A program made the translations under genes and the position numbers. Below are positions 3,127 to 21,643 of a stretch of 24,661 nt of DNA, piece by piece (the first letter of the stretch is position 1; every line of letters starts with the position of its first letter). A model generated the notes under the pieces. That model had not been told where the DNA came from. It was given only the letters and a program-made list of their open reading frames with translations, and did no database searches. The DNA comes from a virus, in IMG/VR virus record IMGVR_UViG_3300036652_000920, positions 1 through 24,661 of that record, one strand, 5' to 3'.

Positions 3127-3143
3127 GACTAGACTGTACCCCA
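3127..3143 (-). promoter_or_regulatory. Possible leaderless promoter box at the kinase 3' end
   Basis: On the minus strand TGGGG-TACAGT (-10-like box 3138-3133) lies inside the last codons of the kinase gene, 6 nt before the ATG at 3126. The box matches those of the intergenic cassettes. With usual -10 to +1 spacing the transcript would begin at or next to the ATG, which is common in actinobacteria. Confidence 0.4.
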
Positions 3144-3641
3144 CTCGGTGACGACGCGTAAGCCCTCGCGACGGCAAGCTGCCGCAACGTTGTCGGCCTT
3201 CGTGGCGGCCACCTTGCAGTACTGCTCGGTGAGCTGCTTCCCACCTCGAGCGGCCCGGCGCTCGGCCGCCACCTCCGGGCTCACCTGTAGGTGAACCACG
3301 GTGAGGTCTGTCTGGGCCGCCAGCGCCGACAGGAACCCCATGTGGCACAGGCGGGCTCCCTCTCCGAAGACCCAGTCCAGGCCGAGCAGCGGCAGCGCCT
3401 GTAGCCAGAGAAGGGCCTGAGGCGCCACCGAGAGGCTGAGAGCGTCCGTCCCGGGGTACTCGGGCCGAAGGTGCCCCAGATACGCTCCAGAGCCCTTCTC
3501 GGGGTGCGACAAGACATGCCCGAACATCTCCCGGGTCGTCCACTTCTGGTAGGGCCCGACTTCCCAGCCCTCCAGCATCTGGGCCATCAGGGTGGACTTG
3601 CCCGCCCCGGGCCCTCCTATGATGTAGACGCCTCGCGTCAT
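3129..3641 (-). CDS. P-loop kinase, probable 5-hmdU DNA kinase catalytic subunit (170 aa)
   Basis: A Walker A motif GGPGAGKST is at residues 9-17, followed by a kinase-type core: a possible Walker B/NMP region (GLDWVFGEGARL), strand LTVVHLQVSPEVAAERRAARGG with paired arginines as in a lid, and a final helical part (EQYCKVAATKADNVAAACRREG). The length and plan fit small NMP/T4-Pnk-like kinases. Known background: phages with hypermodified thymidine phosphorylate the 5-hydroxymethyl group of hmdU in DNA with a P-loop kinase (HMUDK; phages ViI, M6, SP10). The neighbours here (HMUDK helical-domain protein, ThyA-like protein, AADT-like protein) make that role the best inference. It starts at the ATG 5 nt after the ThyA stop; the weak ribosome binding site suggests coupling. 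An ordinary dNMP kinase is the alternative. Confidence 0.7.
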   Translation of the reverse strand: MTRGVYIIGGPGAGKSTLMAQMLEGWEVGPYQKWTTREMFGHVLSHPEKGSGAYLGHLRPEYPGTDALSLSVAPQALLWLQALPLLGLDWVFGEGARLCHMGFLSALAAQTDLTVVHLQVSPEVAAERRAARGGKQLTEQYCKVAATKADNVAAACRREGLRVVTEWGTV

Positions 3642-3647
3642 CCGGAC

Positions 3648-5084
3648 TCAGGCCCACAGCTTCTTTGCCAACGCGAGAGTCATACCCATCATGAGGTCGA
3701 CCTGGGCGATTTTCTCATCCTGGTCGGTGAGCTGTTCCAGGATGCCGAACTCCTTCCCGATGTCTCCCCCGTAGACCTCGCCCACGCCAGCTAGAATCGG
3801 CTGCACGTCTGCCGGACCACCGTCGAGACCGGTGAGCCAGCAGCGCATCTTGGCCAGGTACACCAGCAGGTCGATGGCGGTGTCGGCCTGGGTCTCGTCG
3901 GACGTGTCCAGGCCGGTACCGATGCGGTCGACCTTGCGAGCGATGTTGCCCAGGATGCCCATCTCCCCGCGCCGCTTCCAGCTGTCCCCGTAGGCAGCGT
4001 GCTTCTCCGCGTGCAGGGTGTTCACATAGCCCAGGAAGTCCGGTTCGGGGGCCGGGGCCACCGGGGCAGGCTCCTGGGGCTTCCCGGCAGGCGCGGTGGA
4101 CGCGGCACAGGCAGCGTGCAGCCGAGTACCCTGGAGCGGCACCAGCGGAGCCACGTCCCCGCTCCAGTACCACTGCAACACCCGCAGCCAGCTCCGCATC
4201 ATGGGCTCCGGGAAGGTGTCGGCGTCAACCTGGGCCCCTGTGCGGATGCTGTGCTCGTACTCGAACCACATACGCACGAGAGAGTCCAGGTCGGCGAGGT
4301 CCTTGACGCCGTCGAGCCGGGGCGAGTCGGAATGGGGCATCAGCGGGCTGTTCCGGCGGATGCGGTCGGCCTTCGCCCAGTGCTGCTGGTACAGGTGGAA
4401 CGACGTCGTGCTGAAGTGCAGCGAGCCGACGCTCAGCCCAGTCAGCCCAGCGACGACCTCGAGCAGCACCGACCACTCGAAGGCATTGATGCCGCTCCAG
4501 CCCCACATGGCGTCGTTGCTTCGGATGCCGACGTGGAGGTCCACGAACCCGAGCCGACTGCTGAAGCTGAGCCAGTTGTTGCAGGCGATGTCCTTGCCCG
4601 GCTTGGTGTCCTCCGTCGGGTCCCACAGCGTGGCCACGGCCTGCCGCGACCCGGGGCTCTCCTTCAGCGTGTCGACCACGTAGGCCAGCTGGTCCACCCC
4701 GTGGTAGTTGCGCAGCCGGGGCCCATAGCCCGCGCGCCAGCTAACGCCGTCGTCGGTGAAGTCGGCCGCGCGGGGCAGGTACGGCGCCAGCCCGGCGACG
4801 TCGTTGCGCCCAGCCAGGACCCACATCGTCTCGACGATCTGGGCGGCGATGTTGGCCTTGCGGTCGGGCAGGGTGATCTCCCGCTGCCACGGCCTGCTCA
4901 GCGTGATGCCGACGTGCATGAGCTCCAGGGTGCGGCCCGCGCGCGACCCGAACTCGGAGCCGTCGGCCAGCAGGTCGCCCATCAGGACGGGCAGCGCCCG
5001 GTCGACGTTGTCGAAGTGATAGTTGAAGTTCACGATGTCCTTCTCGTATGTGGTTGTGCCCCAGCCCTCGGTCGCCGGTCGCAC
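3648..5084 (-). CDS. ThyA-like dUMP (hydroxy)methyltransferase fused to a MazG-like domain (478 aa)
   Basis: Residues ~15-320 follow the thymidylate synthase fold: catalytic Cys168 in KDIACNNWLSF, RSNDAMWGWSGIN at 188-200, and FHLYQQHW near 229-236 in place of DaHIYxNH. Asn200 matches the FN asparagine that reads uracil; dCMP hydroxymethylases carry Asp there, so dUMP is the likely substrate. The usual PPCH is replaced by IACN. A Pro/Ala linker (325-349) leads to a helical domain (350-478: HAEKHAAYGDSWKRRGEMGILGNIARKVDRI... DTAIDLLVYLAKM) of the MazG-like/DUF1599 type. In the context of HMUDK and AADT genes, making 5-hydroxymethyl-dUMP is likelier than dTMP, with the MazG-like part perhaps trimming dTTP or dUTP pools. 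The GTG at 5084 follows GGGGAAGA; longer in-frame starts overlap the upstream stop and add a low-complexity N-terminus. Confidence 0.8.
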   Translation of the reverse strand: MRPATEGWGTTTYEKDIVNFNYHFDNVDRALPVLMGDLLADGSEFGSRAGRTLELMHVGITLSRPWQREITLPDRKANIAAQIVETMWVLAGRNDVAGLAPYLPRAADFTDDGVSWRAGYGPRLRNYHGVDQLAYVVDTLKESPGSRQAVATLWDPTEDTKPGKDIACNNWLSFSSRLGFVDLHVGIRSNDAMWGWSGINAFEWSVLLEVVAGLTGLSVGSLHFSTTSFHLYQQHWAKADRIRRNSPLMPHSDSPRLDGVKDLADLDSLVRMWFEYEHSIRTGAQVDADTFPEPMMRSWLRVLQWYWSGDVAPLVPLQGTRLHAACAASTAPAGKPQEPAPVAPAPEPDFLGYVNTLHAEKHAAYGDSWKRRGEMGILGNIARKVDRIGTGLDTSDETQADTAIDLLVYLAKMRCWLTGLDGGPADVQPILAGVGEVYGGDIGKEFGILEQLTDQDEKIAQVDLMMGMTLALAKKLWA

Positions 5085-5154
5085 GGCCGACGTCTTCCCC
5101 ACGCGGCCCCACGGTTCCAATCGTGGGCGAGGTGGCGCACCGAGGGCTGGGAGT

Positions 5155-6111
5155 CTAGATGAGGGTGTAGTAGTCAGGGAGGACGGGGTCGGGCTGCGGG
5201 CCCGGGTGGGCGGGCTTGTAGGGCCGGTCAGCCACAGGCCCCTGGCTGTACCGGTGGTACTTGCTGTATTCACAGAGCAGGTTGCTGCCTATGTCCATCA
5301 GGCTTGGTACACGGTACCCCAATCGCGGGCATTCCGGTAGTGCACGCAGAGCACCGTACACGGCCTTGACCGTGTCACCTACCCGAGCGTTCGGGTTGAC
5401 GGCCTTGGCGCCCTTGATGGACCCCGGGCCGGGGATCAGAAAGTCGTCCTCGCGGTCCTCTCCACACTGGTATCCCCAGTCGGTGAGCACCTGCATCGCC
5501 ATGAAGTCTCCCACGCCCTTGTTGCGCTTCAGGGCGTTGAACCTCACCGATTGGGTGGGCGCCACCTCCCAGGAAGGCATGACGTCGTCGGGCGAGCCAG
5601 GGGTGAACAGCCGCTGCGTCAGGTTGATGATGGAGTCCAGCTTGTCGGTACCGGGCGTGTCCGACTGCGGGAACACCAGGTAGGCGCTCGTGAAGAAGGG
5701 GCGCTCAGCGCTGGCCTTCGTCCTCGTGATCTTGTGCGGGGTGTCCTTGTGGGCCCGCTCCTGAACGGTCTTGGTCTTGACGGACCCCCGGTACTCCTTC
5801 CAGGCCGCTCGGACGTCCTCGAGAGCCTCGACCGTCGGGTAGCCACCCAGCATGACCGAGAGGTACTGCCACGTCTCGATGCGCCCAGTGTGGCGGTACA
5901 GGAACGCCCGCATGAGGGTGTCTCGTGGGCTCAGCCCCGGCTCGAACAGGTCGGTGAGCAGGAACTGAGTGCCCGGGTCCAGCACGCGGAAGACGTTGGT
6001 GAATTTCCGGGACGCCAGAATGGGGTCGTCGGTCCACGGCTGCGGGGCCCCGGCCTGCCGCTTCTCCCAGATGCGGTGCCGCTCAACTACGAACTGCAGG
6101 AAGTCGTCCAT
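5155..6111 (-). CDS. 5-hmdU DNA kinase helical-domain protein (aGPT-Pplase clade 2 type, 318 aa)
   Basis: The N-terminus FLQFVVERHRIWEKRQAG..QPWTDDPIL...FTNVFR (residues 4-41) is the signature of the family first described by Iyer and colleagues as alpha-glutamyl/putrescinyl-thymine pyrophosphorylase clade 2 and later renamed the 5-hmdU DNA kinase helical domain. The rest is helix-rich, with GVGDFMAMQVLTDWGY (~207-222) resembling a helix-hairpin-helix DNA-contact segment. ATG 6111 forms a TGATG junction with the upstream gene; earlier in-frame starts overlap that gene. It likely recognises hmdU in DNA and works with the separate P-loop kinase two genes downstream. C-terminal ~30 residues are Pro/Tyr-rich and probably disordered. 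Confidence 0.8.
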   Translation of the reverse strand: MDDFLQFVVERHRIWEKRQAGAPQPWTDDPILASRKFTNVFRVLDPGTQFLLTDLFEPGLSPRDTLMRAFLYRHTGRIETWQYLSVMLGGYPTVEALEDVRAAWKEYRGSVKTKTVQERAHKDTPHKITRTKASAERPFFTSAYLVFPQSDTPGTDKLDSIINLTQRLFTPGSPDDVMPSWEVAPTQSVRFNALKRNKGVGDFMAMQVLTDWGYQCGEDREDDFLIPGPGSIKGAKAVNPNARVGDTVKAVYGALRALPECPRLGYRVPSLMDIGSNLLCEYSKYHRYSQGPVADRPYKPAHPGPQPDPVLPDYYTLI

Positions 6112-6317
6112 CACAGCTCGACCGACACAATCCGCACCGCAGTGACCATTGGGCCCCTCCGGTAGCACATGAGCGCGCCCAGGGTGCGCGCCTCGTTGTC
6201 TTCAGCTGTCATGCCCAGCCTCTTCTCTTCCACGTCGACCGTGACGTAGTGGGTGCGGATGTTGGCTGGTGTGGGCGGTCGTACCCGCGCCACGTCAACC
6301 TCCAGCTCATAGAGCAT
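6111..6317 (-). CDS. Small hypothetical protein (68 aa)
   Basis: Starts at ATG 6317 within the end of the zinc-ribbon gene and ends in a TGATG junction with the hmdU kinase helical gene. The sequence alternates in a beta-like way (THYVTVDVEEKRLGM ... MVTAVRIVSVEL) with a helix (AEDNEARTLGALM) between, suggesting a small alpha/beta fold. I do not recognise the family. It is inside the modification operon by coupling. Confidence 0.65.
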   Translation of the reverse strand: MLYELEVDVARVRPPTPANIRTHYVTVDVEEKRLGMTAEDNEARTLGALMCYRRGPMVTAVRIVSVEL

Positions 6318-6453
6318 CGAGGGGCAGCTCGTCCCAGGTGTAGCCGCACCGCCCGCACGTGCGGCGGATCAGGCCGATGAACATGTAGCGGGCGCTGGCG
6401 TAGGAGCTGCCGCACTTCACGCAGCGGCTATGTGGGGAGAAGGGCCGCGTCAC
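6307..6453 (-). CDS. Zinc-ribbon miniprotein (48 aa)
   Basis: A 49-codon frame starts at GTG 6453 (GTGA overlap with the gene upstream) and ends 11 nt inside the next gene. It encodes CVKCGSSYASARYMFIGLIR followed by RTCGRCGYTWDELPL: two CxxCG knuckles about 20 residues apart, the classic zinc ribbon. Its smallness would make gene finders miss it. It probably binds nucleic acid or serves as a small partner of a modification enzyme; no specific family is assigned. Confidence 0.7.
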   Translation of the reverse strand: MTRPFSPHSRCVKCGSSYASARYMFIGLIRRTCGRCGYTWDELPLDAL

Positions 6454-6740
6454 TTCAGCTCCCGGATGGCCTCGAGGATGAGCTCGTCAGCCTTGTCGGT
6501 GTCGACGTCCTCCAGGTAGCCGTCGGAGTCAAACTCGCCGCTGACGAACTTGCCCCGCACGAGCGCCGCGTACACCTCCCACTCCCAGCCGGAGTTGCCG
6601 AACGGGCGCTTGCCGCTGAAGCCCTCGCCCTCCCGCCACACCGTCGCGAGCAGCCTGACCAGGTACTCGCGCACCGAGGACGCTTCGGCGTCGTTGTCGT
6701 GCGGGTCCATGGGGCACTTCAGAACACCCTGGGCACTCAT
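6450..6740 (-). CDS. Conserved actinophage hypothetical protein (96 aa)
   Basis: ATG 6740 overlaps the stop of the PLP-enzyme gene (ATGA) and has GGAGGAGAG 6 nt upstream; longer frames are not needed. The protein (SSVREYLVRLLATVWREGEG... NSGWEWEVYAALVRGKFV...DKADELILEAIREL) is acidic and mixed alpha/beta. I recall closely similar short proteins (LL.TVWREGEGFSGKRPFGNSGWE.DLY.AL...) as frequent hypotheticals in actinophages, not tied to modified-base clusters, so it may be a passenger. No catalytic motif is visible. Confidence 0.75.
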   Translation of the reverse strand: MSAQGVLKCPMDPHDNDAEASSVREYLVRLLATVWREGEGFSGKRPFGNSGWEWEVYAALVRGKFVSGEFDSDGYLEDVDTDKADELILEAIRELK

Positions 6741-7603
6741 GCGAACTCTCCTCCAACGATCCAGAAGCAGGTAGTGCCGTCGCGGCGGGTCCACCACTCG
6801 GGCTGCACCAGGTTGAGCCACCGGATGCATTTTCCTTCGTAAGTCGGGTGAAAATTGATACCGTCCAGCGACTCCTTCATCCGGTCACCGTAGCTGGCCC
6901 ACACGTCATGCAGCGTGAGGAAGTGCAGGTTGACACCCGGGATCTCCATCCCACGGCCAACGAGGGCCAGCCGGTTGGCTGCCCAGGTTCGCCGGTCGGG
7001 CCCGATCTCCATGAGGTAGATGTCGCGCAGTGCGGCGGGGCGCGCGTCGTGCAGGCCGTACAGCACACCACAGGCTGTGTTGGACGAGCCGAACGGCAGC
7101 ACCAGGGTCTCTACCTCGTCAGGCAGGTTGGCGGTCTGGGGCGCCCCCACCCGCAGGAACGCCTCGATCTCCTCTCTCCCGGCGTCGGGCGGCGTGGTTA
7201 TGCCGTAGGGCATCCTCCAGACGCCGGGCTCTCGAGCGGCCTCCAGGGCCGCTCTCTGCAGGGCTGTGTTGTAAGCGACGGGGATGGCCCGCACGGTGGC
7301 CCCGGCGTCCACCGCGATGCGGATGGACGGATGGCGCACGGCCTTCTCCGGAGTGGTGGCGCCCACGATGATCTCACACTCGAGGCCGAAGTCGCGGGCC
7401 ACCACGGCCGACATGGCCGCCTGCGGCGACAACACCGACTGGGCCGACACCACCGTCATGACGTCGCCCCGGGCAGCCGCCTGCCCGATCAGGTGCTGGC
7501 AGGCTCGCAGCTTGGAGCCGTTGACGCCCGGAGGGTCGATGCGGTGAGCGTCCTCCCGCTTGAACCAGCGTCCGCCTCGGAGCTCGACGGGGGTGAGGGT
7601 CAC
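6737..7603 (-). CDS. Fold-type II PLP-dependent enzyme (288 aa)
   Basis: The sequence fits the tryptophan synthase-beta/ACC deaminase/D-cysteine desulfhydrase superfamily: PLP lysine probably Lys31 in NGSKLRACQ, SAQSVLSPQAAMSAVVARDFGLECEIIVG (53-81) as the SNH..A.A..A...G segment, and the phosphate-binding loop PFGSSNTACG (170-179). It is shorter (288 aa) than most members (320-340 aa). GTG 7603 forms a GTGA overlap with the gene upstream; longer in-frame starts lie inside it. PLP chemistry is known in thymidine hypermodification, where amino acids attached to the base are decarboxylated or rearranged, so tailoring of an aminoacyl-thymidine in DNA is the best inference. Free amino-acid metabolism is the alternative. 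Confidence 0.8.
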   Translation of the reverse strand: MTLTPVELRGGRWFKREDAHRIDPPGVNGSKLRACQHLIGQAAARGDVMTVVSAQSVLSPQAAMSAVVARDFGLECEIIVGATTPEKAVRHPSIRIAVDAGATVRAIPVAYNTALQRAALEAAREPGVWRMPYGITTPPDAGREEIEAFLRVGAPQTANLPDEVETLVLPFGSSNTACGVLYGLHDARPAALRDIYLMEIGPDRRTWAANRLALVGRGMEIPGVNLHFLTLHDVWASYGDRMKESLDGINFHPTYEGKCIRWLNLVQPEWWTRRDGTTCFWIVGGEFA

Positions 7604-8307
7604 TTGACTTCCAATCCGATGGGTGCGGCAGGGGTGGGCACGAACGCGGCAGGCTGCCCGGTGCGGGAGAACGACATCACGGTAGACCAGCGGTGCCAGA
7701 ACCCCGCCACCATCCAGTAGCCGTAGAGCTCCTCGAGCCGGTGCGCCAGCGCGCCGAGGTAGGCGGGGTAGTTCACGCAAGTTCCCTCGCCGAGCAGTGA
7801 CTCGTACTTCCGGCGGTGGAGGTGCAAGTATCGAGCGGCGACGTCGGTGAGGACGACGCCCTTGGGCTCTCCAGCGAACACCCGGTCCAGCAGGGCCCGG
7901 TGCTGGGTGCCCTCCCGCGTCTTCCACGCCGTCAGGTCGCCGAAGTCCAGCCCGACGATGTCAGCCTCGTCGTAGTGGACCGGGTTGTAGGAGTCAGCCT
8001 CCATCACGAAGACCCCTGGTACGTGGGCTGCGATGTGCCGCACCGCCTCGGTGCTGGTGTCGTACACGCCGTGGTACCGAGGAGCCCAGAGCTCCTCGAT
8101 CATGAGGGACTGGGCCCCCAGCCCGCCGAAGTACTCCATCGCGGTGTGGACGTTGGGGTGCAGCCCGGCCAGCGCCCGGTAGGCGTGCCACCCCGCCGTC
8201 AGGTGGGCGCTGGCTCCCCGGGGAGACCGCAGCGCCCAGTTCAGGAACCACTCCTGCTTGGGCTCCTCGACACTCATGGTCCACCGCTCGAGGATTGTCA
8301 GCTCCAC
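7600..8307 (-). CDS. Rossmann-fold, methyltransferase-like protein (235 aa)
   Basis: Features like class I SAM-dependent methyltransferases: a glycine-rich turn MEYFGGLGAQSLMIEEL (~58-74) as motif I, an acidic position in HGVYDTSTEAVRHI as motif II, ADSYNPV as motif III and ADIVGLDFGDLTAW (~115-128) as motif IV with an aspartate in place of NPPY. A C-terminal part (ELYGYWMVAGFWHRWSTVMSFSR) is aromatic and beta-like. GTG 8307 has AAGGAG 5-6 nt upstream and overlaps the homing-endonuclease gene by 10 nt. Its place between the AADT-like and PLP genes suggests a tailoring step on modified thymidine. The methyltransferase reading is from motif shape only; a non-catalytic Rossmann protein is possible. 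Confidence 0.55.
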   Translation of the reverse strand: MELTILERWTMSVEEPKQEWFLNWALRSPRGASAHLTAGWHAYRALAGLHPNVHTAMEYFGGLGAQSLMIEELWAPRYHGVYDTSTEAVRHIAAHVPGVFVMEADSYNPVHYDEADIVGLDFGDLTAWKTREGTQHRALLDRVFAGEPKGVVLTDVAARYLHLHRRKYESLLGEGTCVNYPAYLGALAHRLEELYGYWMVAGFWHRWSTVMSFSRTGQPAAFVPTPAAPIGLEVK

Positions 8308-8927
8308 GAACGCTCCTTCCGTACATCGGTCGAACCATCGGCGCGGCCGATGCGGCGTGCACCCTTACGCTGGTTGCAGACGAGGTGGCTCAGCCATAGG
8401 TTGTCGAGATCGTCCGTTCCTCCAGCCCGCGCTGGGGTGATGTGGTCCACGGACCGAGACATCGGAGTGCGGGCTGGAAGGCTAAAGTCGATAGGTAACA
8501 AGCACAACTGGCAGAGGTCTCCGTCACGCTCGTGAAGGACGTCCCCGACCTCGGCGAAGGATCCTCTGAACCCGCCGTAGGTGTTGCCGATCATGTTGTC
8601 ATGCGCCTTTGCACGGGCAGCGGCGAAAGCTGCCTCCTGGGCGGGTGTGCGGGCTCGACCCTTCATTGTTCGTGACAACGACGCGGCCTGTTTAGCCCGA
8701 GACGCGTCGGTATGCGCAGCGCGGGCCGCAACGACGGCAGCCTTCTGGGCTTCTGTGGGGGTACGCCCCGCCCAAGAAGCCTTGAGTGCCGCTCGGTGCT
8801 CGGGGCTTTTGGGCTTCCCCGAGTTGGAAGCGGATATTTTGGCCCTAGTCTCGGCGGACAGGGTCTTTCCTCGGCGCGAAGCAGACATCTTTGCCCGGGT
8901 CTCAGGAGTGTGAGGACGGCCTACCAC
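8298..8927 (-). CDS. NUMOD3/HNH homing endonuclease (209 aa)
   Basis: The N-terminal ~75 residues contain three or four NUMOD3-type DNA-binding repeats (HTPETRAKMSASRRGK, LSAETRAKISASNSGK, KSPEHRAALKASWAG, and later TPAQEAAFAAARAKA). They are followed by an HNH nuclease: CQLC near 141-144, SVDHITPARAGGTDDLDNLWLSHLVCNQRKG near 162-192. This matches freestanding group I intron-style homing endonucleases of phages. The GTG at 8927 has AAGGAG upstream and overlaps the AADT-like gene by 7 nt, and its end overlaps the methyltransferase-like gene by 10 nt, so it has been accommodated neatly in the operon. No intron is visible around it. Base composition is somewhat less GC-rich than its neighbours, in keeping with later arrival. 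Confidence 0.88.
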   Translation of the reverse strand: MVGRPHTPETRAKMSASRRGKTLSAETRAKISASNSGKPKSPEHRAALKASWAGRTPTEAQKAAVVAARAAHTDASRAKQAASLSRTMKGRARTPAQEAAFAAARAKAHDNMIGNTYGGFRGSFAEVGDVLHERDGDLCQLCLLPIDFSLPARTPMSRSVDHITPARAGGTDDLDNLWLSHLVCNQRKGARRIGRADGSTDVRKERSWS

Positions 8928-9958
8928 CTGCGCTCCTTCCGGATACCGAAGTCACCGCGCGCCACCTTGCGGTCAAACTCTGACTCTTCGATAAGAGCAG
9001 AGAAGCTGCTCAGGAGTGGGATCTGACCGGTTTCACGGAACCAATCCTGCTTCACCGGAGCGAGACCGGGATCGTTCGGCGTGTCCTCCAAGCGAAGTTG
9101 GGTAGGGAGATACTTCTTACGAGTTTCCCACAGCAGGTCGAACCGACGGCCGAACCTGGCCTCTGCCTTACGAATCCTCTCGTAGAACATATCCGAGTAG
9201 ACATTCGGATACCTTCGTCGAGGTTTCCACCAGGATTTCCACGTGCAAAACGCCGACTCCAGGGTCAGCCGTCCGGCGTCCGGGTGGTCAACCTCGGCCA
9301 GCAGGCCGTCGGCGTACCGCTCCAGCTCCGGCACGATGCCCAGCATGTCGGGCGTGCCCTCGTCCCAGTACACGGCGTCGTACCCCGCCACCGTCGCGAT
9401 GCCGTTGCGGTGCGACTTGGACCCTGCCTTGTCCTCGAGCATCCAGGTGCCCGCGTCGGGGACGGATGGCCCCAGCAGGATGCGCGCGTACTCGATCATG
9501 GACCAGGTAGACAGGCGACCCATGTAGGGCTGGCTGAACGCCCACTTCCAGGTGGCGTCCCAGCCCAGGCGCCCGGCGCCGAGCCAGGTGGTGCCCGGAT
9601 GGTGACCGTAGACCTCGTGCCACTGCTCGGTAGCGACGCCGAACTTGCTCTTCTGGTGGCGCCGGTCGGTGTCCCACTCGAGCTTCTTGAAGTGCTCGTT
9701 CCAGAAGGCCACGGCGTCGGCCCAGCGGTCGGGCGTGGGCGCGGCCTCGAGCAGGAGCAGGGACGTCACGGCGTTCTGGGTGTTGCCGTTCAGCCACACC
9801 AGCCACGCCCTCTGGTCCTCGTCCAGCTCGAGCTCTTCAGCTATGGCGGGCAGCATCTGGTACACCGCGCCCGGGTGGCTCTTGTACTCCAGGTGCATCC
9901 TGTAGAACTCCAGGAAGCTCTCGCGCCGGTTCTCCGGAAGCCGGTAGTCGATGGTCAT
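8921..9958 (-). CDS. Amino acid:DNA transferase-like protein (aGPT-Pplase clade 3 type, 345 aa)
   Basis: The N-terminus FLEFYRMHLEYKSHPGAVY (15-33) and QRAWLVWLNGNTQNAVTSLLLL (49-70) are the hallmark of the family named alpha-glutamyl/putrescinyl-thymine pyrophosphorylase clade 3. Further conserved-looking charged segments are DTDRRHQKSKF (~97-107), EDKAGSKSHRNG and TWKSWWKPRRRYPNVYSDMFYERI. In phages M6 and ViI, enzymes of this broader group displace the phosphate(s) of phospho-hmdU in DNA with an amino acid (amino acid:DNA transferases). ATG 9958 has GGGAG 5 nt upstream and overlaps the 46-aa gene. The amino acid used (glycine and serine are known elsewhere) cannot be told from sequence. 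Confidence 0.78.
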   Translation of the reverse strand: MTIDYRLPENRRESFLEFYRMHLEYKSHPGAVYQMLPAIAEELELDEDQRAWLVWLNGNTQNAVTSLLLLEAAPTPDRWADAVAFWNEHFKKLEWDTDRRHQKSKFGVATEQWHEVYGHHPGTTWLGAGRLGWDATWKWAFSQPYMGRLSTWSMIEYARILLGPSVPDAGTWMLEDKAGSKSHRNGIATVAGYDAVYWDEGTPDMLGIVPELERYADGLLAEVDHPDAGRLTLESAFCTWKSWWKPRRRYPNVYSDMFYERIRKAEARFGRRFDLLWETRKKYLPTQLRLEDTPNDPGLAPVKQDWFRETGQIPLLSSFSALIEESEFDRKVARGDFGIRKERRW

Positions 9959-10095
9959 ACTGGCTCCCACTCGATGCCGACCGAGTTGAGACCCTCGGAC
10001 ACGCGGTCCCAGAAGTCAGCCGGGAACGCCGTACCGTCCTCGTGGTCCTTGGGCCAGACGTAGATCTGCGGGTCCTGGCCGAACTCGTCGCTCAT
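9955..10095 (-). CDS. Small acidic hypothetical protein (46 aa)
   Basis: A 47-codon frame starts at ATG 10095, 1 nt after the stop of the upstream gene, and ends in an ATGA overlap with the AADT-like gene. The product is acidic and aromatic (DEFGQDPQIYVWPKDHEDG..FPADFWDRVSEGLNSVGIEWEPV). No motif is recognised. The two tight junctions are the main evidence that it is translated; it could be a small partner of the transferase. Confidence 0.6.
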   Translation of the reverse strand: MSDEFGQDPQIYVWPKDHEDGTAFPADFWDRVSEGLNSVGIEWEPV

Positions 10096-10096
10096 G

Positions 10097-10567
10097 TCAG
10101 CGGTGTCCTATCGAGTTGTGGATGTGCACGTCGAAGTACCAACGACGGGCAGCCGTTCGATCTGCCCAGGGGCGCGAGTGTAGCCCGCACAGCGGGCAGT
10201 CGACTTGGACGTACCCGGGTGCCGTATTACTGGCAGCGAACTGAGGTTCTAGGGCCACGAAGATGTCGGCGAGGCGAACCGATGCGAGCTTGTGGGTTGC
10301 CGTCCACACCATATCCGGACGCGGCCCTACCGTGACGTATCCCAACTTCACCAGAAGGTCTCGCATGCGGTAGAACCTCTGGCGGTCGCAGGCAAAGACG
10401 CTGCGCCGCATGAAGACGTTGGTCTCTGGCGCTACCTCCAGCACGGCCTTCATGCGCTCCAAAATCTCGGTAGTGGCCCTGGGCCCACCCGGGGAGGCAG
10501 GCTTGCGCGGGCCCCGGTTTCCCTTGGGGATGTGCACCAGACGCTCGGTGTTCGATGTGACGTTCAT
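10097..10567 (-). CDS. Hypothetical protein with wHTH-like core and C-terminal Zn motif (156 aa)
   Basis: Residues ~33-85 (TTEILERMKAVLEVAP... VFMRRSVFACDRQRFYRMRDLLVKLGYVTVGPR) look like a winged-helix: two helices, a recognition-type helix and a beta wing. The C-terminus has CPLCGLHSRPW and, about 20 residues later, HIHNSIGH, a possible Zn-binding CxxC...HxH. The N-terminus is basic and Pro/Gly-rich. ATG 10567 overlaps the stop of the polymerase gene (ATGA). Possibly a DNA-binding accessory of the polymerase or a regulator; no family is recognised. Confidence 0.6.
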   Translation of the reverse strand: MNVTSNTERLVHIPKGNRGPRKPASPGGPRATTEILERMKAVLEVAPETNVFMRRSVFACDRQRFYRMRDLLVKLGYVTVGPRPDMVWTATHKLASVRLADIFVALEPQFAASNTAPGYVQVDCPLCGLHSRPWADRTAARRWYFDVHIHNSIGHR

Positions 10568-12393
10568 CCCTTGCGGTACCTCTCTGTGACGAACCCCTCA
10601 CCGTCGAGGGGCAACCCTGTGGCCCACGTGGGCACCTGCGTCATGATGCGGGTGATCTCCTCGAGCTCGTCGCTCTCGACGATGACCTCGTCGTGGACGT
10701 GGCCCACGGTGCGGTAGCCCGCGTCCTCGAGCCGCACCAGGGCCTCCGCGAGAACGTCCCGGGCGATGGCCTGCGTCACGTTTTCTGCGAGCCTGCCTCC
10801 GTAGGTGCCGATGGTCGCCCCGCCACGCTTGGGGTCGTTGTAGACCCAGCTCTGCTTGAAGATCTTCTTCCCGGTCTTGGGGTCGGTCACGGAGTACCGG
10901 CGCCACTTGACGCCGTGGTAACAGATGGCCCGGCCCGACGGCAGCTCGATCTGCATGTCGGTGCCGGAGCGGTGGACCGTGATGTGCGGGCCCGCCTGCC
11001 CTCCACCGTCCACGGCGTCCTCGATCTTCCGCCACAGCCCCACGATGCGCGCGTTGGCCCGGCGCCACGCCGTCACTAGACCCAGCAGTGCCTCGTCGTC
11101 GCCCTCGGCGCCCATGGCCCGCAGGCTTCCCACGCTGCCGTTGTAGCCCAGCGCCAGCACGGCCACCTTGCCCTGGAACCGGGTGAGGGTGTTGCCCGGG
11201 GTGGACATACGCTCGGCCGTCTCGACGTAGATGTCTCGGCCGTCTCGGAAGGCCTGGAGCGCCCACTCCTCGCCCGCCATCCAGGCCAGCACGCGGGCCT
11301 CGATGGCTGCGTAGTCCACCACCGTGAACGGGCCCACGAACATCGAACGGACGAGCGCCTTCAGGGTGTGGGGGTCGGCCCCCAGGCCCATCTTGAGGTC
11401 CAGGATGGCGGCCTCGGGGTCGTCCACGGTGGCACGCGGCAGGTTCTGGGGCTGGACGCGCTGCCCGGTCCAACGGCCCGTGTGGGCCCCGAAGAACCGG
11501 AAGCCACCCCGGATCCTCGAGTCGGGCGACACCACCTCGAGCGCGGCGGTGAACTTGCCGCCCGCTGCCAGGGCCAGGTCCTGCCGCAGCTCGAGCACTT
11601 GCTTGTGGGTGGGGTCGGTGTCTGGGTCGTCCAGCTTGGCCTGGATGGTCTCGGCCCTCAGGTTGGGTAGGTCCAGCCCAGCCTCGGCAGCCCACGCCAT
11701 CACCTGAGGCTGGCTGGCCGGGTTCTCCACGCCCGTGAGGCGGGTGAACTCCTCCTTGTTGGCGACCTTGTTCTCCTCGACCGCGCGGGCCGCGAACTTG
11801 CACAGCTCCAGGTCGATGGCCATGCCCCGGTCGTTGATCCGCTGGTCGACCACCCACACGCGGCGCTCCGCGGTCGTGGGCCAGTCGCCCAGCTTGGCGT
11901 GCACGTCCATCATGGTCTCGACGTCCTGGACGCAGTAGCTCAGGAACTCCAGCCATTCGGCCGGGTGGGTCTCCGCTGTGTTCCACCCTCCGTCCCGATT
12001 GGGCACCGTGAACAGCTTGATGAGCCTGCTGCCGGCCGAGTCCTTCTCGGCCGCCTGGAGGGCTCTCGCGGCCCCGTCCAGGCTGGTCGGGTAGCCGTAC
12101 TCGGCGGCCAGCGCGGCGGTGTCCACCCACTGCTCCGGGTCCAGCAGGCGCCAGTCCAGCACGCCCAGGCAGACCCGCTCGAACTGTGCGTTGTGGGCCA
12201 CCTTGATCTCGGCGGGGTCCAGCAGCCCGGGGATGGCGAGGATCTCGTCGTGCCCCACGGCTACCTTCACCGGACCTCCGGTGGACCAGCCCGCCATCAG
12301 CACCTGGAAGTCGAGGTCCTCGGAGTACTTGTACGCGCCATGAGTTTTCAGGTCGGTCCGGCTGCGGGTCTCGATGTCAACCCAGATCGTCAC
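10564..12393 (-). CDS. Phage family A DNA polymerase (609 aa)
   Basis: The N-terminal 3'-5' exonuclease starts at once: TIWVDIETRSRTDLKTHGAYKYS (DxE, ExoI), AHNAQFERV (ExoII) and a YCVQDVETMMDV ExoIII-like segment. The polymerase part shows motif A VVDYAAIEARVLAWMAGEEW, motif B KVAVLALGYNGSVGSLRAMG and motif C GHVHDEVIVES with the catalytic HDE. There is no 5'-3' exonuclease domain, as in other phage PolA proteins. GTG 12393 shares its G with the TAG of the upstream gene; longer frames overlap that gene. It is the replicative polymerase of this phage and would have to accept hmdUTP or a thymidine analogue if the modification model is right. It has 'YNG' where many relatives have 'YGG/YQG'. 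Confidence 0.95.
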   Translation of the reverse strand: MTIWVDIETRSRTDLKTHGAYKYSEDLDFQVLMAGWSTGGPVKVAVGHDEILAIPGLLDPAEIKVAHNAQFERVCLGVLDWRLLDPEQWVDTAALAAEYGYPTSLDGAARALQAAEKDSAGSRLIKLFTVPNRDGGWNTAETHPAEWLEFLSYCVQDVETMMDVHAKLGDWPTTAERRVWVVDQRINDRGMAIDLELCKFAARAVEENKVANKEEFTRLTGVENPASQPQVMAWAAEAGLDLPNLRAETIQAKLDDPDTDPTHKQVLELRQDLALAAGGKFTAALEVVSPDSRIRGGFRFFGAHTGRWTGQRVQPQNLPRATVDDPEAAILDLKMGLGADPHTLKALVRSMFVGPFTVVDYAAIEARVLAWMAGEEWALQAFRDGRDIYVETAERMSTPGNTLTRFQGKVAVLALGYNGSVGSLRAMGAEGDDEALLGLVTAWRRANARIVGLWRKIEDAVDGGGQAGPHITVHRSGTDMQIELPSGRAICYHGVKWRRYSVTDPKTGKKIFKQSWVYNDPKRGGATIGTYGGRLAENVTQAIARDVLAEALVRLEDAGYRTVGHVHDEVIVESDELEEITRIMTQVPTWATGLPLDGEGFVTERYRKG

Positions 12394-12590
12394 TAGAACC
12401 CGTCCCAGTAGTCGCCCTCGTCGGGCCCGTCGATGGACAGGGGGTCCTGCGCACGCCGGGCCTGCTTCCGCTTGCGGTTGTCGGGCCCGAACCTCGCCGG
12501 GCGGTCGATCTTCTCTCCGCACAGCAGGCAGTGGCCTCGCACGTTCGACACGCCGTGGACGCCATACACTGACGCCGCGCAGAACGTCAT
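12393..12590 (-). CDS. Small zinc-knuckle hypothetical protein (65 aa)
   Basis: ATG 12590 overlaps the end of the dCMP deaminase (ATGA). The protein has CLLCGEKIDRPARFGPDNRKRKQARR: one CxxCG knuckle followed by a basic stretch, then an acidic tail ending DEGDYWDGF. One further cysteine near the N-terminus (FCAASVYG) could complete a site. Single-knuckle proteins like this often sit beside phage polymerases, but I do not recognise a named family. Confidence 0.6.
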   Translation of the reverse strand: MTFCAASVYGVHGVSNVRGHCLLCGEKIDRPARFGPDNRKRKQARRAQDPLSIDGPDEGDYWDGF

Positions 12591-12955
12591 GGGGCGATGA
12601 CCGTCCGGACGATGCCCGCCGTCAACGCGCGGCGGGCGCACGGTGCGCACGGCTGCCGGGTGACGTAGAGCGTGGCGCCCCGGGCCTGCAGACCCGCTCG
12701 CTGCAAGGCGTTGTCCTCGGCGTGCAGGCATAGCTCGTCGTCGGCCTGCGGGCTGCCGCTGGCGCAGCTACGACCCGCCCGTGGGCAGCCACCGTCGCCG
12801 CAGTTGGGTGCCCCGCGCGGGGTGTCGTTGAACCCAGTGGCAACCACGTCATGGTCGGGGCTCATCACGACTGCGCCCACCCGGTCCCGCGTGCAGCTGG
12901 ACCAGGTGGCGACGGCCCGCGCCAGAGCCACGGCCCGTCGGTCCCACTTCGTCAC
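12587..12955 (-). CDS. dCMP deaminase (122 aa)
   Basis: Zinc-dependent cytidine/deoxycytidylate deaminase: VGAVVMSPDHDVVATGFNDTPRG (26-48), catalytic H78-A-E80 in CLHAEDNAL and PCAPCAR at 102-108 (C103, C106). An additional cysteine-rich stretch, C52, C57, C64, may hold the second structural zinc seen in phage dCMP deaminases. It converts dCMP to dUMP, the substrate of the ThyA-like enzyme. At 122 aa it ends right after the final core strand (GIVRTVIAP), shorter than most (about 150-190 aa), so the C-terminal helix that often packs in the hexamer is absent. GTG 12955 overlaps the upstream stop. Confidence 0.9.
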   Translation of the reverse strand: MTKWDRRAVALARAVATWSSCTRDRVGAVVMSPDHDVVATGFNDTPRGAPNCGDGGCPRAGRSCASGSPQADDELCLHAEDNALQRAGLQARGATLYVTRQPCAPCARRALTAGIVRTVIAP

Positions 12956-13140
12956 CGCGTGACTTCCTTCAGCATGGGCGACATGTCGCCACCGTCGAGC
13001 CAGCGCAGGACGTCGGCCACGCCTCGGGCGTAGGCGCGGTTCATGGTGTTCTCCGACCGCTTCTCGGCGATGTCGGCCATGCGGCGCAGCCGCTTGCGGT
13101 CCTCGACCGTCATGAGCGGGCGCTTGGGTGCGGGGGCCAT
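12952..13140 (-). CDS. Small basic helical protein (62 aa)
   Basis: ATG 13140 (TGATG junction) to TGA 12952 (GTGA with dCMP deaminase). The sequence is nearly all helical and charged (VEDRKRLRRMADIAEKRSENTMNRAYARGVADVLRWLDGGD). No motif is recognised. It is coupled on both sides, so co-translated with the deaminase. Confidence 0.65.
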   Translation of the reverse strand: MAPAPKRPLMTVEDRKRLRRMADIAEKRSENTMNRAYARGVADVLRWLDGGDMSPMLKEVTR

Positions 13141-13436
13141 CAGTTCACGCCCAGGTGGTTCCGCAGGCAGGTCTCGAGCTCGTCCGTCGTGTGGTCGTCG
13201 ATGGTGACCGTGCAGTTGACGCAGGGGTTGTCGTCCACGACCTCCACGACGTAGCTGTGGCGGTAGGAGTCCGACGGGCCCGCCTCGTACAGCAGGGTCG
13301 TCGCGGTAGGGCTGAATCGGGCGCCCCGGACGGCCAACACGCGCCCATCGGCCAGGCGGATCCGGGGGGCCGGGAGACCCTGGCGTGCGTTGAAGCTCGC
13401 GAGGTGCCCCAGCTGGTTGGCCTGCATCTCGATCAT
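13140..13436 (-). CDS. Hypothetical protein (98 aa), first gene of the dCMP deaminase/polymerase unit
   Basis: ATG 13436 has GAGGAGA 6 nt upstream and lies 46-51 nt after the -10-like box of promoter copy 4. The protein has a beta-rich middle (PRIRLADGRVLAVRGARFSPTATTLLYEAG, HSYVVEVVDD) with CVNC near residue 76 and a helical end (TDELETCLRNHLG). Family unknown. As promoter-proximal gene it probably sets the start of the long unit that carries the polymerase and, downstream, the modification genes. Confidence 0.7.
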   Translation of the reverse strand: MIEMQANQLGHLASFNARQGLPAPRIRLADGRVLAVRGARFSPTATTLLYEAGPSDSYRHSYVVEVVDDNPCVNCTVTIDDHTTDELETCLRNHLGVN

Positions 13437-13487
13437 CGTGTTCTCCTCGGCGATTGGCGGGCCCCTGTGGCCCACGGGTGGAGCGTA
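13437..13487 (-). promoter_or_regulatory. Promoter/leader cassette, copy 4
   Basis: Minus strand: TGGGG-TACGCT (13487-13482), CCACCCGTG, then leader hairpin GGGCC-ACAGG-GGCCC (core 13471-13461), then GAGGAGA before ATG 13436. It is the likely start of the long leftward polymerase/modification transcript. It is part of a 77-bp sequence repeated exactly at 20293-20369. Confidence 0.65.
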
Positions 13488-13530
13488 CCCCACCCGGGGG
13501 TAGTTGCGCTACCCCCGGGTGGGTGGAACT
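13454..13530. repeat. 77-bp exact direct repeat, copy A
   Basis: Identical over 77 bases to 20293-20369, in the same orientation. It contains the terminator hairpin, the -10-like box and the leader mini-hairpin. Flanking bases differ immediately on both sides. Confidence 0.9.
13489..13523 (-). terminator. 15-bp hairpin with CGCAA loop after the ssDNA-binding gene
   Basis: Arms 13489-13503 and 13509-13523 pair perfectly around the loop CGCAA (minus strand). It begins 10 nt after the stop of the DUF2815 gene and directly precedes the -10-like box of the next unit. No U-tract. An operator role is an alternative because the arms also form a palindrome on DNA. Confidence 0.6.
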
Positions 13531-13532
13531 TG

Positions 13533-14081
13533 CTAGATCAGCGCTGCTTCCGCGTCCGCGAAGTCGTCCTCGGCGCGGGTACGGCCACCCAGGGCCGGAC
13601 CGTCATCCAGGAACTGCACGTTGTTGAGCCCGAACGAGATCCCCCGGTTGCCGCTGTTGCTGTAGGGGAAGGCGTTCATGCTCACCCGGGCGTAGCAGCC
13701 CGAGTAGACCTGCGTCGGATCGATGACGGCGTTCAGGCTCGCGTCGACGACGCCGGGGCGGGTCTTGGACGAGAGGGCCATGTAGTAGTGGCCCGCGTAC
13801 TCCGGGTTGCGCTCCAGATCGGCCTCCTCGTCCCCGTCGTGCAGGGTCGTCTTGAGGGCGGTCGGGATCTTCCCACCGAACACCTTGGTCTTGCCGGCCT
13901 CCGCCGCTGCGGCCTGGGCCTTGCGGATCTTGTCCATGGTGGTGGTGTCGGACTTCGGGATCAGGATGGTGGTGCTGTACTTCGCCTCCTGGTCCGGGTT
14001 GTTCGAGTAGGGCTCGAACAGGTGGACGTAGGACAGGCGGACCTTGCCGGTCACGACCTTGGTGGGGGACTGCTCAGGCAC
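13533..14081 (-). CDS. DUF2815/Enc34-type single-stranded DNA-binding protein (182 aa)
   Basis: Matches the DUF2815 family: TGKVRLSYVHLFEPYS near the N-terminus, YSTTILIPKSDTTTMDKIRKA (~35-55), LKTTLHDGDEEAD, EYAGHYYMALSSKTRPGVVD and the strongly conserved QVYSGCYARVSMNAFPYSNSGNRGISFGLNNVQFLDDG (~123-160), with an acidic tail. Enc34-like proteins of this family bind ssDNA with an OB-type fold during phage replication. GTG 14081 has AAGGAGA upstream. It pairs with DUF2800, PolA, SNF2 and VRR-NUC genes in a replication module seen in many phages and prophages. Confidence 0.88.
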   Translation of the reverse strand: MPEQSPTKVVTGKVRLSYVHLFEPYSNNPDQEAKYSTTILIPKSDTTTMDKIRKAQAAAAEAGKTKVFGGKIPTALKTTLHDGDEEADLERNPEYAGHYYMALSSKTRPGVVDASLNAVIDPTQVYSGCYARVSMNAFPYSNSGNRGISFGLNNVQFLDDGPALGGRTRAEDDFADAEAALI

Positions 14082-14097
14082 TTCGGTTCTCCTTGAT

Positions 14098-14457
14098 TTA
14101 CGGTGTTACGGCAGGGACGAGCCAGTCAGTCCAGTCGCGCACCTCCCAGCCTAGAGCCTCGGCGACGTGACGCTCCAGCTGGGCTCCCCGGCTGGCTTCC
14201 CATCCGGGGAGCATGGCCAGCCCATCGGCCATGTGGAGCATCGAGATCAGGTCCGCGCGGAGGTAGTCCTCCCACGGAAGCAGTTCCTCGCTCGGGTGGC
14301 AGGGCCCCTTGCAGGAATGCGCGGTGATGATGGTGCACACCCTGTGCGGGTTCAGCACCGTGTGCCCCACGGAACTGAGCGCTGCTTCTGCCGCCGTGAA
14401 GAGCGGCTTGTTCAGGTCGGGGTACCCGGTGATGGGGCCGCTGATGTACAGCCTCAC
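14098..14457 (-). CDS. DUF4406 nucleoside deoxyribosyltransferase-like protein (119 aa)
   Basis: The start LYISGPITGYPDLNKPLFTAAEAALSSVGHTVLNP is typical of DUF4406, related to nucleoside 2-deoxyribosyltransferases: the GPI(T) turn and the NP motif near residues 7-37. DYLRADLISMLHMADGLAMLPGWEASRGAQLERHVAEALG (~75-110) is the second half with the GWE.S.G..LE signature. GTG 14457 overlaps the upstream stop. Likely acts on nucleotides or their N-glycosidic bond; a link to base modification or salvage is possible. A CHPS/CKGPC pair in the middle is unusual. Confidence 0.85.
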   Translation of the reverse strand: MRLYISGPITGYPDLNKPLFTAAEAALSSVGHTVLNPHRVCTIITAHSCKGPCHPSEELLPWEDYLRADLISMLHMADGLAMLPGWEASRGAQLERHVAEALGWEVRDWTDWLVPAVTP

Positions 14458-14750
14458 GTGAAATCCTGCTGGGCGTGCCGGACTGCCGGGGCGTCCGGAG
14501 CCCACAAAGACCTGGCGCCCGGCTCCGGCGTAACCGGCTCGTCGTCCACGTAGTCGGCGAACAGCCCACCGACACGAACGATGAGTTTCCTCATCTCGGC
14601 GTAGCTGGCGCTCAGCTCGCCGTGCCGGGTCTTGGACTCCCGCAGCATGGCCCGCAACTGGGGCGTACTGCGACGGGCGATCTTCTCCATGATGCCATTC
14701 AGCTCGGTGGCAACGATGGCGATCTCGAGGACGTTCCGTTCCATTGCCAT
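14454..14750 (-). CDS. Helical hypothetical protein (98 aa)
   Basis: ATG 14750 overlaps the TAA of the DUF2800 gene (TAATG) and the end overlaps the DUF4406 start (GTGA). Mostly helical (VLEIAIVATELNGIMEKIARRSTPQLRAML, SYAEMRKLIVRVGGLFADYVDD), with a Pro/Ala-rich tail; coiled coil is plausible. No family recognised. Position suggests a role in the replication/recombination module. Confidence 0.7.
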   Translation of the reverse strand: MAMERNVLEIAIVATELNGIMEKIARRSTPQLRAMLRESKTRHGELSASYAEMRKLIVRVGGLFADYVDDEPVTPEPGARSLWAPDAPAVRHAQQDFT

Positions 14751-15904
14751 TACAGCGTCTCCTTCTGGAACTCTTCAGCCGCTCTGGCTGATGGGTTGAT
14801 AGCGGCCCTACGATCGCTCTCCGGCACCAGAGACGGGCTGCCGGGGCCCCTGGTAATGAAGGGGCCCACGGCCACATCGAAGTCGCCCCCGAGGAGCTTC
14901 TCCAGGTCGCCGATACCCCGCATCTTCCGGGTGCTGACTTCGTCCTTGTCGTAGCCGATGGAGGTCAGCGCCTCCAGGGCACCCTCCGGGTCGGTGATGG
15001 ACCGGCGACCGCCCGACATCACCACCTTGAACCCCGGGATGGTCTTGCCCTTGGAGTAGACGAGGTCCAGGCAGTAGTCCTTCACCGCCGCGCACCACTT
15101 CTCGATCGCAGGGATGCGCTCCAGCGAATCGGCCAGCTCGACCTCGTCCAGGAGCTCGGCCGGAGCGAAGTCGCCCTGCACCGAGTACTCCATCTGAGCC
15201 CGGCACTGGCCGGACACAGGACACCAGCGGCAGGCCTCGTCGCTGGGCCCGAACGGCGCGTCGGGCCCCAGGGCAAGCTCGGCCGTGGGGATGATGCTGT
15301 CGCGCCACCCCCGCAGCTCGTTGGCCGTCAGCTCCTCGGTGCTGACGTGGCCCAGCCGAGGCTGGAAGATGTGCAGACGCACCACCTGTGCCTCGCCCAG
15401 AAGGTCGCCATAGGCCTCGAGCGCGCCCACCCCGTACAGCCGGATCTGCGGGTTGCCCTGTGCCTCCACCTTCACGCCCAGGCCGTACTTGAAGTCGCAG
15501 ACCTCCACGACATTGGGCGAGACGATGACGGCGTCACTGGTGCCCCAGCAGTCGGGCACACCGGTGGGCAGTCGCTGCTCGAGCAGCAGCTGGCCGAGCG
15601 GGTTGTCCTGCAGCCGGAGACGCAGGAACCGGACGTAGTCGTCAGCGTAGACGAGCATCTCCTCCTCGGCCTCGGGCAGGATGTCGAACTCCTGCCTCCA
15701 GGCCGGGGCCCAGGAGAGGTCTTCCGACTCGCCCAGCAGGCGCACCCGGGCCATGTGCTCCGCCAGGGCGTGGGCCGCCGTGCCCTCCCGTGCATACACG
15801 CTGTCCGGCTGGTCGGGCACCGTCTCCGCCATGCGGATGCTCGCCGGGCACCGCAACCACCGTTCCGCTGCACTCGGGCTCAACGTAGCGTGCAGCCCGC
15901 TCAC
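14750..15904 (-). CDS. DUF2800 Cas4/RecB-like nuclease (384 aa)
   Basis: DUF2800 hallmarks: LSPSAAERWLRCPASIRMAE (residues ~8-27), REGTAAHALAEHMAR (~39-53), GTSDAVIVSPNVVEVCDFKYGLGVKV (the D...D-x-K PD-(D/E)XK core, ~120-146), then PQIRLYGVGALEAYG, and DEACRWCPVSGQCRAQ, a C-terminal cysteine cluster with the early C19. These cysteines likely hold an Fe-S cluster as in Cas4/AddB. It probably processes dsDNA ends for recombination-dependent replication. GTG 15904 overlaps the stop of the upstream gene (GTGA). Confidence 0.9.
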   Translation of the reverse strand: MSGLHATLSPSAAERWLRCPASIRMAETVPDQPDSVYAREGTAAHALAEHMARVRLLGESEDLSWAPAWRQEFDILPEAEEEMLVYADDYVRFLRLRLQDNPLGQLLLEQRLPTGVPDCWGTSDAVIVSPNVVEVCDFKYGLGVKVEAQGNPQIRLYGVGALEAYGDLLGEAQVVRLHIFQPRLGHVSTEELTANELRGWRDSIIPTAELALGPDAPFGPSDEACRWCPVSGQCRAQMEYSVQGDFAPAELLDEVELADSLERIPAIEKWCAAVKDYCLDLVYSKGKTIPGFKVVMSGGRRSITDPEGALEALTSIGYDKDEVSTRKMRGIGDLEKLLGGDFDVAVGPFITRGPGSPSLVPESDRRAAINPSARAAEEFQKETL

Positions 15905-20274: not shown

Positions 20275-20326
20275 GTCGTTGATCTCCTTCGGTTGGCGGG
20301 CCCCTGTGGCCCACGGGTGGAGCGTA
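20275..20326 (-). promoter_or_regulatory. Promoter/leader cassette, copy 7
   Basis: Same as copy 4: TGGGG-TACGCT (20326-20321), leader hairpin GGGCC-ACAGG-GGCCC (core 20310-20300), AAGGAGA, ATG 20274. Confidence 0.65.
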
Positions 20327-21631: not shown

Positions 21632-21643
21632 CTAAGGAGAACC

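Follow-up and report, generated by a model that had tools for sequence, protein, structure and literature searches.

The subject of this analysis is a leftward operon in a 24,661-base virus record (IMGVR_UViG_3300036652_000920; G+C = 67%), the whole of which is referred to here as the window. Read along the minus strand, the genes encode a dCMP deaminase, a family A DNA polymerase (PolA), a 156-aa open reading frame (ORF), a transferase, an HNH endonuclease, a methyltransferase-like protein, a pyridoxal phosphate (PLP) enzyme, two small ORFs, a protein with the helical domain of 5-hydroxymethyldeoxyuridine (5-hmdU) DNA kinases (HMUDK_hel), a ThyA-type protein and a P-loop kinase (Table 1). An original prediction, made from the sequence alone, had read positions 3129-9958 as a thymidine-hypermodification operon of an actinophage with dCMP deaminase and polymerase genes immediately upstream, and each of the proteins that it named is indeed encoded on the minus strand at or near the place it was assigned, a 156-aa ORF lying between PolA and the transferase. 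Its gene list overlooked the HNH/NUMOD3 gene (8298-8927), and the small ORFs at 6111-6317 and 6450-6740 also fall within the span. Thymidine hypermodification remains the best reading of the operon, given that HMUDK_hel, ThyA, a transferase of the ADDT group and the PLP enzyme co-occur here and recur across contigs. Specifically, the operon probably encodes the core of a ViI-type pathway, to which the methyltransferase-like protein may, more tentatively, add a methylation step.

Core enzymes of the cassette

The ADDT family PF18724 is matched at E <=0.01 by 21 of the 25 proteins in the transferase alignment (A8), the window protein not being among them, and by six of seven relatives scanned singly, the exception being the protein of Glutamicibacter phage Montesquieu. 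Matches to this family include a protein of contig L008 that is 69% identical to the window transferase (1.9e-11) and Det7 gp175 (1.8e-57). For an AlphaFold2 (AF2) model built from 25 sequences (pLDDT 93.1, pTM 0.91), the best solved structure is the PaMx11 5-PmdU glycinyltransferase 8z2m (VIA Z 18.0, root-mean-square deviation (rmsd) 3.2 A over 247 residues), followed by the sister entry 8z2n (Z 17.9) and then by DNA glycosylases at Z <=8.3. Because its relatives match PF18724 and its modelled fold matches 8z2m, the window transferase is placed with the ADDT (clade 2) group. The original prediction of an amino acid:DNA transferase is thus upheld, while its clade 3 label is not: the window protein leaves PF18746, the clade 3 family, unmatched at E 10, and two distant relatives match it at 0.0061 and 0.012, below the cut-off, as against 6.9e-44 and 1.8e-57 for ADDT.

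By tblastn, 374 phage records hold relatives of the transferase and 347 hold relatives of the PLP enzyme; most records in each set belong to phages of Salmonella, Vibrio, Klebsiella, Escherichia and Dickeya, with 27 and three Mycobacterium phages, respectively; Montesquieu and mycobacteriophages stand at the top of the transferase list. SilasIsHot and Det7, the two relatives for which taxonomy was looked up, are both Ackermannviridae. The ADDT profile reaches Det7 at 1.3e-35 and M6 at just 6.7, and a PLP-enzyme profile of four actinophage-type rows reaches the Det7 enzyme at 5.7e-57 and that of M6 at 2e-7. As judged from these comparisons, ViI-type phages have the nearest counterparts of both the transferase and the PLP enzyme. 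The PLP enzyme and the methyltransferase-like protein had been described as an unfamiliar pair, a description that does not suit the former: apart from those of the actinophage group, the PLP enzymes most similar to it come from ViI-type phages. One Lys of the PLP enzyme is invariant in all six alignment rows and presumably stands where PLP attachment is expected.

HMUDK_hel scores 142.9 bits against PF18723, for which the cut-off is 25, in agreement with the helical-domain assignment made originally, and has relatives in Microbacterium, Vibrio and Pseudomonas phages, M6 included; for both this protein and ThyA, the distance to M6 is about equal to that to Vibrio phages. A ThyA profile of five rows, one of them from M6, finds CMP 5-hydroxymethylase 5jnh as its best PDB match (3.3e-43), with thymidylate synthases next at 2.6e-25 and weaker, and the predicted Asn is present, aligned to the Asp of 5jnh. 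Asn at that position reads uracil, and the protein fits a putative dUMP hydroxymethylase. The C-terminal extension of ThyA (...LHxEKHxAYGDSWKRRGE...) is conserved in L008, G001 and Montesquieu, but not in M6; for this C-terminal third no Pfam match is listed, and PHROG matches are weak (0.0014-0.01). The P-loop kinase, also as predicted, is present and is 35-36% identical to MONT_40 and MONT_39 of Montesquieu; it is predicted to be a partner of the helical protein or an hmdUMP kinase. In mycobacteriophage records its relatives are annotated as adenylate kinase or as terminase small subunit, the latter probably in error.

A scan of viral contigs with the transferase profile yielded 27 loci. L024 and L050, which closely resemble L025 and L048, were left out, L042 gave way to L023, a longer stretch from its contig, and Montesquieu (L002) was added. 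This made 26 loci for comparison with the window, among which the kinase is found in 26, the PLP gene in 24, ThyA in 18 and HMUDK_hel in 15. Several of these loci are short pieces, and L026/L027 and L046/L047 look nearly identical, so that not every count is independent; the PLP gene missing at locus L032 is found elsewhere on its contig. Taken together, the core cassette is present, as identified by sequence similarity, in Montesquieu and more than 20 other viral contigs, and represents a known type of pathway.

The methyltransferase-like family

The new element relative to this known core is the methyltransferase-like family. With 63% identity to a counterpart in L008 over 238 aligned positions, the window ORF qualifies as a real gene; searches of Pfam and PHROG gave no match for it. 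When six family members were compared with Pfam, the sole match was Methyltransf_25 at E 0.11 in one of the six; no PHROG was found for members, and NCBIfam gave only a plastocyanin match (0.0015) for one of them. Relatives were found neither in phage records nor in bacterial and archaeal genomes, the latter scanned with short peptide patterns, which can miss relatives. In viral contigs, pattern scans starting from one and from three query sequences recovered four contigs, and those starting from six sequences recovered 15. A tblastn search with the L008 protein against L005, L010, L009, L011 and L003 returned nothing below E 0.067.

Several lines of structural evidence indicate a class I S-adenosylmethionine (SAM) methyltransferase fold for this protein. 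An AF2 model from three sequences reached pLDDT 72.4 and pTM 0.77, the other four models ranging from 46.8 to 58.5. Foldseek matched the model to 1160 PDB chains at E <=0.001, the best 50 of which are all methyltransferases or proteins of the same fold, at TM-scores of about 0.4-0.5, and the top VIA match has Z 14.8 and rmsd 2.8 over 150 residues. Among viral models, two uncultured Caudovirales proteins annotated AdoMet_MTases lead at 1.5e-13, the next match being at 4.4e-7. A glycine-rich FGGxG loop follows the strand at 55-59 of the model, the position of motif I, in all 15 sequences examined (18 matching ORFs, less three second copies from the same contigs), and D[FC]GDLT is likewise found in 15 of 15; two other motifs conserved in the six-row alignment hold in merely 10 and 11 of the 15. 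Additionally, strand 2 ends with an acidic residue (Asp or Glu) in all six rows, and Asp105 is invariant. An acidic residue at the end of strand 2 together with an Asp such as Asp105 is expected of SAM binding. AzeJ is among the fold matches (Z 13.3), level with many others; an intramolecular or aminocarboxypropyl-transfer role is possible for the modelled protein and is not discriminated by the fold. A literature search by title and start of abstract found no methyltransferase described as tailoring hypermodified thymidine, which is weak evidence of absence; the word methyltransferase is frequent in one of the papers listed (PMC6449724).

The gene is also linked to the cassette. A profile scan with the methyltransferase-like family alone yielded 15 viral contigs, 13 of which carry ADDT; contig IMGVR 3300047667_001040, which ends at the methyltransferase-like gene, has the PLP gene, and contig 3300045742_000176, which seems to end inside ThyA, has HMUDK_hel and ThyA. 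A core cassette gene is thus present in all 15, three of which are one phage by sequence (the protein is identical over the compared stretch). In the reverse count, nine of 27 transferase-bearing records, and seven of the 16 of at least 30 kb, carry the methyltransferase-like gene. Its position varies: its place is between ADDT and the PLP gene in the window, in relatives of the L008 type and in a second, distinct tree branch (G030-G033), directly upstream of HMUDK_hel in G005 and G007, and elsewhere in the remaining contigs, some deep branches of the FastTree phylogeny being weakly supported. Varied positions combined with a constant set of partners favor, without proving, a shared function of the protein and the cassette over plain hitchhiking. 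The new side chain envisaged in the original prediction gains support from the predicted fold and from this linkage, its chemistry being a matter for the pathway proposed below.

Proposed pathway and competing explanations

From the observed gene content, families, folds, gene order and co-occurrence we infer every reaction, the identity of the amino acid and what the methyltransferase-like protein acts on, as follows. dCMP deaminase would supply dUMP, which the ThyA-type enzyme would convert to 5-hydroxymethyl-dUMP; this would be phosphorylated and then incorporated by the phage PolA, which would have to accept 5-hm-dUTP. In DNA, HMUDK_hel and the P-loop kinase would activate the hydroxymethyl group as a phosphate or pyrophosphate, and ADDT would swap the activated group for an amino acid. 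Serine is the best guess, as the transferase is ViI-like, a guess from kinship alone. The fold-type II PLP enzyme would decarboxylate the side chain, leaving an aminoalkyl group, and the methyltransferase-like protein would then methylate the side chain, most likely at its amine; methylation after decarboxylation is preferred on the reasoning that the PLP enzyme needs a free primary amine. Enzymes of these kinds reportedly act this way in ViI and M6, as work by Lee (2018 and 2022) and Iyer (2013) is said to describe. Our proposal, held tentatively and with somewhat less than even confidence, is that the methyltransferase-like family methylates an amino-acid-derived thymine side chain in the DNA of actinophage-like viruses, giving a new base such as an N-methylated 5-(2-aminoethoxy)methyl-dU.

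A number of observations weigh against the proposed pathway as a whole. The window transferase has no Pfam match even at E 10 in a single-sequence search, and neither does the Montesquieu transferase on its own; hhalign of the window transferase with M6 ADDT gives a probability of 4%, and the Foldseek match of the transferase model to 8z2m, though assigned probability 1.00, has a weak E of 0.046. The window kinase matches PF18751, PF18748, the family matched by the kinase of M6, not being listed for it at E 1, and its best PHROG is labelled 'terminase small subunit'. The methyltransferase-like model is only moderate in quality, and the gene itself is missing from nine of the 16 transferase-bearing records of at least 30 kb and must for this reason be regarded as optional.

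That the gene is missing from over half of the larger cassette-bearing records also fits an alternative that we rate as somewhat doubtful, namely that the pathway is an ordinary one of ViI type ending in a known base such as 5-NeOmdU, and that the methyltransferase-like gene merely accompanies the cassette, its product having a different target, for example DNA, RNA or protein of the host or the phage. The match of the core to ViI-type phages agrees with this explanation, as does the distance of kilobases that separates the gene from core genes in several contigs, yet each of the 15 contigs with the gene has a core gene, and two separate branches place it between ADDT and the PLP gene while a third arrangement places it beside HMUDK_hel. 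DNA base methyltransferases are marked by DPPY-type and Pro-Cys motifs, neither of which appears in the six-row alignment, a further point against this alternative. An alternative concerning the amino acid is that the substrate of the transferase is glycine or some other amino acid; the product would then be an N-linked glycyl base or one related to it, as in PaMx11 and M6, and not a serine-derived O-linked one. We consider this unlikely: although the best structural match of the transferase is a glycinyltransferase, the only transferases in the fold list are 8z2m and 8z2n, both of the PaMx11 enzyme, and the fold is therefore uninformative on substrate, whereas the profile gives no match to M6 ADDT and strong matches to ViI-type relatives, and no radical-SAM domain occurs among the 20 window proteins scanned, the contig being a fragment.

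Far less probable still is an explanation in which the PLP enzyme and the kinase are auxiliary genes of amino-acid metabolism, an import or synthesis cassette unrelated to DNA. Such a role has been proposed in print for Montesquieu, with MONT_40 described as an ABC transporter and MONT_41 as an ACC deaminase, perhaps for amino-acid import or synthesis (PMC9331655), and the PLP enzyme does resemble ACC deaminase and D-cysteine desulfhydrase in sequence. The Montesquieu 'ABC transporter', however, is a short P-loop protein that looks like a kinase; PF18751 is its strongest match in Pfam (3.1e-9, above the cut-off), ABC_tran following at 1.4e-4, below the cut-off. Moreover, the PLP gene lies near ADDT in 24 of 26 loci, and relatives of the PLP enzyme and ADDT occur in phages of largely the same host groups. 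For MONT_40 and MONT_41, PF18751 and the gene context speak for a predicted role in hypermodification.

Were the methyltransferase-like enzyme to act on the side chain, the hypermodified thymidines of phage DNA would include an additional, methylated one. Related phages differ in whether they carry this single gene, which makes the methylation step directly testable. Wider uses would lie in new modified bases, restriction-resistance chemistry and DNA-labelling enzymes.

Operon layout and comparison with known systems

Several adjoining genes of the operon overlap; at 7603-7600, for example, GTGA contains both the stop codon of the methyltransferase-like gene and the PLP-gene start codon.

Table 1. 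Genes of the leftward operon and its upstream neighbors in the window, with the evidence for each assignment.
Feature	Coordinates	Strand	Evidence
dCMP deaminase	12587-12955	-	PHROG 174 7.3e-36, PF00383 7.1e-18
PolA, family A DNA polymerase	10564-about 12393 (ORF to 12522)	-	PHROG 17 2.3e-107; probable start from L008 counterpart
156-aa ORF between PolA and transferase	10097-10567	-	
Amino acid:DNA transferase, ADDT / aGPT-Pplase clade 2 (predicted)	8921-9958	-	PHROG 3271 4.9e-59; relatives, fold
HNH homing endonuclease, NUMOD3 + HNH	8298-8927	-	PF07460 1.2e-10, PF01844 4.5e-10
Methyltransferase-like protein, predicted tailoring enzyme	7600-8307	-	class I SAM-methyltransferase fold, linkage
Fold-type II PLP enzyme, predicted side-chain decarboxylase	6737-7603 (ORF to 7927; GTG at 7603)	-	PF00291 7.5e-11, PHROG 3650 5e-64
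Small ORF	6450-6740	-	PHROG 15618 1.3e-18
Small ORF, no family match	6111-6317	-	
HMUDK_hel, 5-hmdU DNA kinase helical-domain protein	5155-6111 (ORF to 6168; ATG at 6111)	-	PF18723 1.7e-41
ThyA-type protein, predicted dUMP 5-hydroxymethylase	3648-5033 (ORF to 5273; start 5033 probable)	-	PF00303 5.5e-18
P-loop kinase Ploopntkinase3	3129-3641	-	PF18751 8.5e-17

The HNH gene is probably a homing insertion and not part of the pathway. A role as a pathway enzyme was rejected, given that the gene is absent from the junction of transferase and methyltransferase-like genes in L008 and that an 11-mer, CGGAAGGAGCG, occurs at both insertion ends in the window (8941 and 8321). In a chance control that skipped pairs less than 100 bases apart, 13 of 5000 random pairs of 70-base operon stretches shared an 11-mer. 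A related HNH gene directly follows the transferase in G001. The C-terminal ends of the two proteins are alike (RKERSWS in HNH and RKERRW in the transferase), as though the former 3' end of the transferase gene now terminated the HNH gene.

At the DNA level the window matches 38 phage records, all of them Mycobacterium or Mycolicibacterium phages and none covering more than 80% of it; among the 20 matches listed, the sole matching stretch is a short one within 17137-17221, at 87-89% identity to mycobacteriophages. The predicted actinophage origin is supported by protein relatives in Glutamicibacter and Mycobacterium phages, though not proven by them. Elsewhere in the window, a large plus-strand ORF (21602-24151), opposite in direction to the leftward genes, resembles a DNA polymerase/primase PHROG. 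An 80-nt element is present four times (13451-13530, 20290-20369, 1573-1652 and 1192-1271), two copies 6.8 kb apart being 99% identical and the others 69% and 64%; it contains an apparent inverted repeat, recognized by eye, its two best copies are located where leftward ORFs begin, and it may be a regulatory element.

Among known systems, Rhodococcus phage Tonitrus and mycobacteriophage Prince resemble the window in having actinophage gene sets with an aGPT2/ADDT relative, and differ from it in carrying a TET/JBP-type or thymidine hydroxylase gene and a ParB-like nuclease gene; no PLP gene was found in the 9.8-kb Prince-like locus L048. For Tonitrus, with its TET-like protein, thymidine hypermodification had already been predicted, according to passages of one report (PMC11955845). 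The PaMx11 glycinyltransferase (8z2m) shares the fold of the window transferase at 14% identity, and its glycine specificity is not transferable. Vibrio phage VPALA (L011) has an annotated DNA methyltransferase (10339-11115) directly after its ADDT and HMUDK_hel genes, and gave no significant tblastn match to the methyltransferase-like family of the window. In Pseudomonas phage M6, which makes 5-NedU, ADDT, a PALP-family PLP enzyme, a P-loop kinase, HMUDK_hel and ThyA lie close together as in the window, and the ORFs after the cassette are taken here for PolA and dCMP deaminase; unlike the window, M6 has an ORF taken by eye for a radical-SAM protein and a kinase of PF18748, and its ADDT and PLP enzyme are distant from those of the window.

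Closer resemblances are found in ViI-type phages of the Ackermannviridae, the ADDT and PLP enzyme of which are of the same families as those of the window. Published work describes a conserved Ackermannviridae set of a dUMP hydroxymethyltransferase, two kinases, a PLP enzyme and two aGPT-type proteins (PMC6336734), and the replacement by 5-NeOmdU of about 40% of thymidine in the kutterviruses Vi01 and CBA120 (PMC11721090). The window differs from this type in having a compact operon in place of scattered genes, PolA in place of a T4 gp43-like polymerase, and the extra methyltransferase-like gene, to which the ViI-type stretches L005 (41 kb) and L010 (31 kb) gave no match. Montesquieu (OV696619), a cheese-rind phage isolate with its core cassette at 5950-15117, differs in having two PF18751 kinases, no methyltransferase-like gene and nothing between ADDT and the PLP enzyme; it shares with the window HMUDK_hel (31% identity), ThyA (42%), ADDT (59%), the PLP enzyme (43%), the kinases (35-36%) and also PolA, and the comparison offers a new reading for this isolated phage, two cassette genes of which were published as serving amino-acid import or synthesis.

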